Positions 61,110 through 63,833 of a DNA stretch of 64,000 bases are shown here, in pieces. The notes under the pieces were generated by a model. It saw only the letters and a list, made by a program, of their open reading frames with translations, was not told where the DNA came from and ran no database searches. The stretch spans positions 32,800 through 96,799 of the forward strand of contig SUWU01000002.1 in assembly GCA_015061295.1 (NCBI GenBank), in the 5' to 3' direction. This stretch comes from Lentimicrobiaceae bacterium. GTDB taxonomy: Bacteria; Bacteroidota; Bacteroidia; Bacteroidales; F082. A program made the translations under genes and the position numbers. Position 1 is the stretch's first letter, and every line of letters begins with the position of its first letter.

Positions 61110-61676
61110 TCACTTATTCATTCCTAATTGTTTAACGAACCTCTCATACCAATCTTCACCGAAACGTCGAATCAGCGGCACTTTCAAGAATTTATATAAA
61201 GGAATACCTTCTTTCTCACCTTTACGCTTCGCTGGCACACATACACTCCACTCGTGATACATGATATGGATGAAACCATTTTGTTCGACAAGACGAATGG
61301 GATAAAGATGACAACTAATTGGTTTCCAAAAATCTATCTTACCTTCCAAATATGCTTTCTCTATAGCACATAAAGCGGTGCCGTTTTCATGAAAATAAAC
61401 GAAAGCACATTCTTCATCATTGACCAATGGTGTTACGAGAGCGCCTCGCTCATCATAATCATAAACATCGTTATTCTCGATGACCGCGATGCCTTCTGGC
61501 CGCATATATGGCTTTATCTCTTCAATATTCTCTTCTATAAGACCGACTTCCTCTGGCTCCAAAGGAGCTCCAGCATCGCCAGCTACGCAACATTCACCTT
61601 TGCATCTCGCAAGATGACAACAAAAACGAGCATTGATAAACTCGTCAGAAACAATTACATTATCTACTATTATCAT
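61110..61676 (-). CDS. DUF3109 family Cys-rich protein
   Basis: ARFCCHLARCKGECCVAGDAGAPLEPEEVGLIEE, WKPISCHLYPIRL. Confidence 0.9.
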   Translation of the reverse strand: MIIVDNVIVSDEFINARFCCHLARCKGECCVAGDAGAPLEPEEVGLIEENIEEIKPYMRPEGIAVIENNDVYDYDERGALVTPLVNDEECAFVYFHENGTALCAIEKAYLEGKIDFWKPISCHLYPIRLVEQNGFIHIMYHEWSVCVPAKRKGEKEGIPLYKFLKVPLIRRFGEDWYERFVKQLGMNK

Positions 61677-61733: not shown

Positions 61734-63374
61734 CTAAAACAATCCTACTATTATTATAACTATCATCATGACAATCGTGAATGCTAAAAACAGCACCTTA
61801 CATGCTAACGCTGTTATTCCTATATATGTCAATAATATAGCAAATGCGGTAAATATGATGAAATTCCATATTCCTACGATGAAACCTCTGATAAAACGCC
61901 TCAACGGTGACGCCACCTTGTAAGCAAACTTAGGAAGATTTTTCTTACAATCTTTCATACTACAATACATCACGAAGATTAGTGACATCATCAGCATTCC
62001 TATAGAGGTGTTGTCAAATTTATCTATCAGCCAATCAGTCCAGGGGGCGTAAAATCCTGATTCATAAAGAGTATATATAAGAGGAGCTAATAGAATGCAA
62101 CATAACACTATTGCGAGGTTTGCGCCAAAACGTGCCATCAGCGACATACGCTCTTCCAACTGTTCCTGCATATATGCCTCTTTAGAACCAGCCTGCGGAA
62201 ACTTATTTACTTTCTGCAATACACTCCACGCCTTGCCGAAACGACGCATCGAACAATAATGATTTACCTTGTCTTTGAGGTCGTCCATGTGATCCGACAC
62301 AGGCGAAGTTACCGTTATCAACTTCCAGTCGGAGCCGAGCAATAAACAAGTATATCTTTTTCTATCCACTTCATACACAACAGTCTTAGCCTCACATTCG
62401 CAGGCTTCCAAAAGATTAAAGCAGACTACAGTATTCGAAGGATGATCAATTCTATTTGGCAGTCGCGACAACATACTTCCTACAATTGGACGAGATGCGA
62501 GATCATTTTTATCAAAATTTTCTTTGTCGATATTCAGTTTCTCTATTACTTGCCAAGGAGTACTGTTGTTAAATAATTTTATAATCTTTGGGACTTCATC
62601 TGAAGGAATTTGAGAAGGGAAACAATAATCGACATGTGTCTTGAAATAATGACTGCAACTCAATTTCCAGAAACGCACCAATTCTTTGTCGCCAATGCAT
62701 GTTGGGCATGTAACTCTACCGCTACCGATGCAAGTAGGACAAGTCTCCGTTACATACTTGATACCTTCTACTTTTCCAGATCTATTACATTGATAACAAG
62801 TTTTGTATCGAGTATGTGTTTTTGTAACATAACGAGTTTTTACTCCTTCTGGACTGTTGTAATATTCTAATTCTTGCGTAGTGTAAGTTCCATCATACAA
62901 CTCACCTTTACCACCACAGGTCTCACATGTTTTTGTGTATTTTTCAGCACGCTCTATAGTTCCTTTTCCTCCGCATTTGCTACAAGTGACTTTTCCAGTG
63001 GCACTACAAGTGTGACATGCAGTGATGTATTGAGAACCAGGAACAGAAAACGATTTGTCATTATTGGCGAAAGAATTAGGATAAATATTGAAAGACCAGC
63101 GATTTATCTGCGATTCAGAACTGATGGTTTTTGGCGGAAATTTTCTTCCTCCGACTCTTTCATACGTATTTTCAAGTGTACGGCTATCATATTGAGTCTT
63201 AATCAATCCTCTGTAAATTGGCGAGTCCCATACTTCTACAATCTTCAGCTGGTCGCCAAGTCTGTTACGGTTGTAACCTTCTATTGATTTTGCCCAGTCG
63301 TTGAACAACTGACGAAAACGATTTTCCTCTGCTTTGGAGAAATTAATCTTTTGTGAATCTCTGTAGTTTGCCAT
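61734..63374 (-). CDS. Membrane protein with DnaJ-type CxxC zinc-finger repeats, no J-domain
   Basis: Six CxxC pairs (CHTC, CSKC, CETC, CYQC, CPTC, CPTC), CxxCxGxG-like; 3-4 C-terminal TM segments; ATG (MANYRDSQ) at 63374 preferred over TTG. Confidence 0.8.
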   Translation of the reverse strand: MANYRDSQKINFSKAEENRFRQLFNDWAKSIEGYNRNRLGDQLKIVEVWDSPIYRGLIKTQYDSRTLENTYERVGGRKFPPKTISSESQINRWSFNIYPNSFANNDKSFSVPGSQYITACHTCSATGKVTCSKCGGKGTIERAEKYTKTCETCGGKGELYDGTYTTQELEYYNSPEGVKTRYVTKTHTRYKTCYQCNRSGKVEGIKYVTETCPTCIGSGRVTCPTCIGDKELVRFWKLSCSHYFKTHVDYCFPSQIPSDEVPKIIKLFNNSTPWQVIEKLNIDKENFDKNDLASRPIVGSMLSRLPNRIDHPSNTVVCFNLLEACECEAKTVVYEVDRKRYTCLLLGSDWKLITVTSPVSDHMDDLKDKVNHYCSMRRFGKAWSVLQKVNKFPQAGSKEAYMQEQLEERMSLMARFGANLAIVLCCILLAPLIYTLYESGFYAPWTDWLIDKFDNTSIGMLMMSLIFVMYCSMKDCKKNLPKFAYKVASPLRRFIRGFIVGIWNFIIFTAFAILLTYIGITALACKVLFLAFTIVMMIVIIIVGLF

Positions 63375-63386
63375 AATCAATCCTCC

Positions 63387-63833
63387 TTAAAATGATGTTG
63401 CATCGTTATCGAAATCAAGTTTACGTATTGCACTTAAGCCGAGTCGTATCGACACGACAATGGCGATGATTATCAGTATCACCGCTATCAAAGGTAAGAA
63501 CAGAGCCAATTCTTTCTGAACGTTTATCTCATCTTTATATTCGTCTAATGCCTTCCAACAATATTTAATTACTGTGAAGCCTTTAAACTCTTTGTCAGTC
63601 TCGCCTTCTGCAAGTTCTTTCTGATACAAGGATTCAGCATAATGAACCATTTTATCTTTTGCTGCATCAAAGCTCGATAATGAATAGGCTCTATATGAGG
63701 CAGAAATCGACTCTTTCAAATCGGCCGTTTTATTTGGCTGATCAGATTTGCTTATAGTAAAATGATGAAAGATTATTATCAATCCAAACGCCAAAGCTAG
63801 AAAGAAAACTTTTTTGATTGTCTTCCAAAACAT
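63387..63833 (-). CDS. Small membrane protein with N- and C-terminal TM segments, partner of the CxxC protein
   Basis: FWKTIKKVFFLALAFGLIIIFHHFTI and ELALFLPLIAVILIIIAIVVSIRLG flank a soluble region; ATG at 63833 preferred over the GTG at 63863; 12 nt from the next gene. Confidence 0.7.
   Translation of the reverse strand: MFWKTIKKVFFLALAFGLIIIFHHFTISKSDQPNKTADLKESISASYRAYSLSSFDAAKDKMVHYAESLYQKELAEGETDKEFKGFTVIKYCWKALDEYKDEINVQKELALFLPLIAVILIIIAIVVSIRLGLSAIRKLDFDNDATSF

Follow-up and report, generated by a model that had tools for sequence, protein, structure and literature searches.

How does a bacterial protein work that carries DnaJ-type CxxC repeats without a J-domain, ends in membrane helices and is encoded next to a small membrane protein? 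The question is raised by two adjacent genes, here called A and B, in the 64,000-nucleotide stretch of a Lentimicrobiaceae contig that we analysed (the window; SUWU01000002.1, positions 32,800 to 96,799). Most work on DnaJ-type zinc proteins that lack a J-domain has been done in plastids. The two genes of the window are a real, conserved and undescribed two-gene membrane module, in which the kind of zinc domain is known and the architecture of A and its pairing with B are new. The parts of the module are listed in Table 1.

Table 1. Features of the B-A module in window coordinates.
Feature	Position	Strand	Description
B	63387..63833	-	148 aa partner of A
A	61734..63374	-	546 aa; N-terminal domain, predicted CxxC zinc ladder, middle domain, four membrane helices
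A residues 1-118	63021..63374	-	Soluble N-terminal alpha/beta domain, matching no known family
A residues 120-226	62697..63017	-	Six CxxC, mirror-symmetric; hairpin and three zinc sites predicted
A residues 227-399	62178..62696	-	Middle alpha/beta domain, matching no known family
A residues 400-546	61737..62177	-	Four-helix membrane domain; positively charged loop 479-492 predicted cytoplasmic
AAGGAGG Shine-Dalgarno-like site	63382..63388	-	Precedes A, overlaps the B stop codon

B lies directly upstream of A on the same strand, and the 12 nt gap and shared direction given in an earlier, sequence-only reading of this DNA are correct. A starts with the ATG at 63374 and encodes 546 residues followed by a stop codon; the gene had been placed correctly, and the protein length of 547 aa stated for it had included the stop. 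Both are real genes, because both are under purifying selection (pairwise dN/dS against four relatives of 0.10-0.22 for A and 0.04-0.20 for B, the lowest B value coming from a saturated dS). Only 167 nt of contig precede B, which limits the view of upstream DNA in this genome. On the other side, 57 nt separate A from a DUF3109 gene (window 61110-61676, minus strand; Pfam E 2.5e-71) that follows it on the same strand; this gene adjoins A in one relative only (L023).

Ahead of A, all nine close copies have the Shine-Dalgarno-like site as AAGGAGG, and so do L047 and L030, in the latter within the final codons of B; L031 and L032 have AAGGAG, and L034, L035, L037 and L038 lack the site. GGAGG stands at such a position in 6 of 295 sampled genes of the window genome (~2%), and ribosomes of Bacteroidia largely ignore Shine-Dalgarno sites unless bS21 is missing (PMC9976891). 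The idea that A is marked for bS21-less ribosomes is weakened by these other GGAGG genes and by the strong sites that also precede cytochrome bd subunit II, an Rnf/Nqr subunit and uvrB. The site is conserved and rare, and translation control that depends on bS21 in Bacteroidia may be connected with it; since some ordinary genes share GGAGG, we draw no strong conclusion on the translation signal of A.

Within the genus, 14 of 99 genomes contain a relative of A, and within the family 23 of 173 (6 of its 16 genera); in the remaining order such relatives are rare (3 of 393 genomes). The named ones are Bacteroidales metagenome bins, mostly from the guts of ruminants, roe deer and horses. Two bins, labelled Alistipes and Bacteroidaceae (L046, L047), also contain the pair, with an A of the 3-rung clade that is ~47-48% identical; this reflects either gene transfer or mis-binned contigs. 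A B-type gene, defined by an N-terminal signal or anchor helix that ~80-100 residues separate from a second membrane helix, which a tail follows, lies directly upstream of A on the same strand in all 26 loci with visible upstream DNA (11 3-rung, 5 4-rung and 10 5-rung; two A genes at contig ends were excluded), with gaps ranging from small overlaps to 53 nt. Flanking genes are common to close relatives only, and the B-A pair is the sole unit present in all; the proposed two-gene module was thus borne out by synteny, the pair being kept while other neighbours differ by lineage. Since A and B occur together wherever this can be checked, they are probably one working unit.

A small TonB_C protein adjoins the pair at four loci (L023:401-775, L027:11183-11569, L028:58-444 and L029:10929-11315; PF03544 in the two tested), upstream of the pair in one genome (~15 nt) and downstream in three (~50 nt).

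Two genes with a patchy distribution and changing locations may suggest an accessory defence system or a toxin-antidote pair. We regard this as very improbable, as neither A and B nor three relatives matched a PADLOC model, the neighbours are housekeeping genes, and phage records, plasmid records and viral contigs contain no match.

The sequence-only reading had described the partner as a short protein with a transmembrane helix at each end. Indeed, B has hydrophobic segments at residues 9-27 (the N-terminal anchor helix) and 109-127. Three lysines stand ahead of the first helix, and the helical middle of ~80 aa is predicted to be periplasmic and the short tail cytoplasmic; AlphaFold2 models B with low confidence (mean pLDDT 68). 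The tail contains a conserved F[DN]N motif in the 3- and 4-rung clades, and the B proteins of these two clades are homologous over their full length (profile E 2.3e-7). The B of the 5-rung clade resembles window B weakly and around the membrane helix only (E 2.4e-4, probability 44%), so that homology is not demonstrable beyond this helix and the pairing claim in that clade rests on position and architecture. In the most distant copies of B, position and architecture are conserved, and sequence weakly.

Is A a DnaJ? It has no HPD motif and no J-domain match (sequence, Pfam and NCBIfam), and the window genome encodes elsewhere its own DnaJ with four CxxC and HPD. The Pfam DnaJ_CXXCXGXG family (PF00684) scores 25.9 bits in A, below its cut-off of 32.7, and hhalign of A against a profile of twelve Bacteroidota DnaJ proteins aligns nothing but the zinc region (E 2.7e-12); the parts of A outside it show no homology to DnaJ in profile comparison (N-terminal E 0.074, C-terminal E 0.65). 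A phylum-wide profile search with full-length A was swamped by DnaJ zinc fingers, which made up nearly all matches, and the N-terminal and C-terminal parts were therefore searched separately. NCBIfam, PADLOC and PDB sequence searches of A and B returned solely zinc-region or noise matches, no Pfam, NCBIfam, PADLOC or PDB family spans A outside the zinc region, and Pfam gave no credible match on B. Foldseek with the A model against the PDB returned nothing at E <= 0.001; its top matches were long-beta proteins with TM-scores of ~0.1 or less, which we take as noise. Classification as a type I DnaJ/Hsp40 was rejected, because A has six CxxC rather than four, no J-domain and, by profile, no DnaJ substrate-binding domain. 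A shares one domain with DnaJ while its remainder is without match; it is therefore not a DnaJ. The earlier statements that A is not an Hsp40 and that the pair is an undescribed protein system both stand, the latter within the libraries searched: neither A nor B falls into a characterised family in the Pfam, NCBIfam, PADLOC and PDB checks, nor does A in Foldseek.

The six CxxC pairs of A, at residues 120, 131, 150, 193, 212 and 223, had been counted correctly, and the CxxCxGxG arrangement ascribed to them holds in part: three motifs are full and the remaining three each miss one glycine. The spacing in window A is 11,19,(43),19,11, with the central interval in brackets. Across all members there are 6, 8 or 10 CxxC, and in every member the spacing is mirror-symmetric around a central loop, exactly or within one residue: 11,11,19,(25),19,11,11 or 11,10,19,(28),18,11,11 with 8, and 11,11,11,11,(loop),11,11,11,11 with 10. 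When the central loop was fixed and only the spacings on either side were permuted, the total asymmetry of 2 residues (mean of the shuffles 40) was reached in 0.25% of shuffles (fraction 0.0025). AlphaFold2, run on 14 sequences and without zinc, folds this region into a single antiparallel hairpin with its midpoint close to residue 175, in which, as deduced from strand positions, 139-149 pairs with 201-211 and 158-174 with 177-192. From the mirror-symmetric spacing and the modelled hairpin, we infer that A probably holds a stacked zinc ladder of 3, 4 or 5 rungs (two in DnaJ), and the simplest reading is one putative zinc site per pair of facing CxxC. The Zn1 site of DnaJ is formed by C147, C150, C200 and C203, which belong to motifs I and IV (PMC8262869), and so obeys the mirror rule seen in A.

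The cysteine-rich domain of type I DnaJ therefore resembles that of A in its CxxCxGxG repeats, its antiparallel arrangement and its cross-arm zinc sites (I with IV; predicted for A). However, DnaJ has four CxxC, spaced 16,26,14 in the window genome and 16 or 17, 22 or 26, and 14 in the same phylum, whereas A has six to ten in mirror symmetry; and, unlike type I DnaJ, A has four predicted membrane helices and a partner gene, and neither J-domain nor DnaJ substrate domain.

In a tree of A computed after removing the zinc region, the 5-, 4- and 3-rung proteins form three groups, each on one side of a branch (4-rung group support 86/82), and rung number changes twice in all, the minimum possible, as expected if rungs come and go as matched pairs. 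Each change is one CxxC gained or lost per arm, which fits cross-arm pairing. As rung number varies, the ladder may be a structural rod and not a substrate site. It could then serve as a rigid arm or spacer, making A a scaffold that sets the distance of the N-terminal and middle domains from the membrane within a larger complex with B. Mainly cysteine and glycine are conserved in the ladder while the rungs go from 5 to 3, and in other parts of the order the ladder is joined to different domains (L177, L178), both of which favour such an arm; against it, there is no larger conserved neighbourhood, B alone being constant, and we consider it rather unlikely.

Other J-less ladder proteins exist in the Bacteroidota. 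L087 and L088 are separate proteins with 8 CxxC (11,13,13,(35),13,13,11) and one C-terminal helix, and align with residues 57-233 of A (hhalign E 2.4e-21). They and L177 and L178 differ from A in their flanking domains and have no four-helix membrane domain, L177 and L178 being soluble. No B-type gene stands beside L178 or downstream of L177; contigs end upstream of L087/L088 and L177. Further J-less CxxC-repeat proteins were seen at L177:3137-4897 and L178:4359-5846 and in L059, L070, L072 and L073, several with mirror-symmetric spacing; L178 has 15 CxxC.

For the C-terminal part of A, hydropathy gives 2-4 membrane segments, varying by homologue, and the AlphaFold2 model has helices at 397-438, 457-478, 490-518 and 520-545 (mean pLDDT 83, pTM 0.50). 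Four is the best count from the model, in line with the three to four helices noted from the sequence; with a pTM of 0.50 the domain orientation is unsure, and the hairpin agrees with the CxxC spacing. Loop 479-492 contains 3 K+R and 0 D+E, and loop 439-456 contains 1 K+R and 3 D+E; these charges and the absence of a signal peptide place the ladder, as a prediction, in the cytoplasm. Such a domain could also belong to a membrane transport or insertion device, in which a Tim17-like (PRAT) four-helix domain works with a ladder that receives substrate. Two distant A homologues match Pfam Tim17 (E 0.002-0.0045), and the top PDB profile match of the C-terminal part of A is NDUFA11 (E 0.11), a Tim17-family member, all below cut-offs. 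Window A itself has no Pfam Tim17 match and membrane helices yield chance matches, so we hold this reading to be improbable.

What, then, may the pair do? We propose that B and A would be two subunits of one inner-membrane unit. On the cytoplasmic side, a long antiparallel beta hairpin of A would stand between its N-terminal and middle domains and be pinned by zinc, each site taking one CxxC from each arm (in window A, motifs 1+6, 2+5 and 3+4), and the four C-terminal helices would anchor A in the membrane. B would cross the membrane twice; its helical part would lie in the periplasm, and its short tail would reach into the cytoplasm, where it probably contacts A. Together they would hold unfolded or unassembled proteins, possibly membrane proteins, at the membrane and would not recruit DnaK, and B would supply position or substrate. 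In short, the pair may be a membrane-tethered, J-domain-independent holding or assembly chaperone with B as its obligate membrane partner, a reading that we put forward tentatively, by analogy with ZnJ2 and ZnJ6. In vitro, both of these J-less zinc-finger proteins hold proteins that are unfolded; ZnJ2 gives DnaK no help in this, and ZnJ6 resides at the thylakoid membrane (PMC5818400, PMC7865324). The plastid proteins ZnJ2/BSD2, ZnJ6, ORANGE and LQY1 have, like A, a J-less DnaJ-type zinc-finger region, and some are membrane-bound; they are plant or algal and have four CxxC (two zinc fingers) as described, whereas A has 6, 8 or 10, they show no homology to A outside the zinc region in the libraries searched, and no B partner is known for them. 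Human fls485 and similar eukaryotic proteins, a possible parallel, are also J-less, have at least four CXXCXGXG repeats and are annotated as DnaJ-class (PMC2838759). Several points speak against this proposal: the patchy occurrence (14/99 in the genus, 3/393 in the order) is odd for a general chaperone, the N-terminal, middle and membrane parts of A are unlike any known one, the number of rungs varies, and the 5-rung B proteins match window B no further than the membrane helix.

Alternatively, the pair could be a redox or zinc sensor, in which zinc release or disulfide formation in the cytoplasmic ladder alters the membrane part and B senses the periplasm. The thiol chemistry of zinc site 2 in DnaJ (PMC8262869), the redox activity of J-less ZnJ6 (PMC7865324) and the predicted two-sided topology of B are consistent with this; however, the cysteines are invariant and lie in a zinc-structural CxxCxG context, and Pfam, NCBIfam and profile searches found no catalytic, DNA-binding or signalling domain. 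We judge the holding or assembly chaperone to rank ahead of the structural arm and of the sensor, the last being the least likely of the three.

Apart from function, we suggest, with a little more assurance but still less than even confidence, that the pair forms an undescribed two-subunit inner-membrane complex, comprising a cytoplasmic zinc-pinned beta rod that evolves through 3, 4 or 5 matched sites, a four-helix domain and a periplasm-facing partner. If true, this would add to the J-less proteins a bacterial, membrane-bound case that is strictly partnered and comes in natural versions of 3, 4 and 5 rungs. The pair would let the role of the DnaJ zinc repeats be probed separately from the J-domain, and the mirror-spacing rule may serve as a simple sequence test of cross-arm zinc pairing in other CxxCxGxG proteins.
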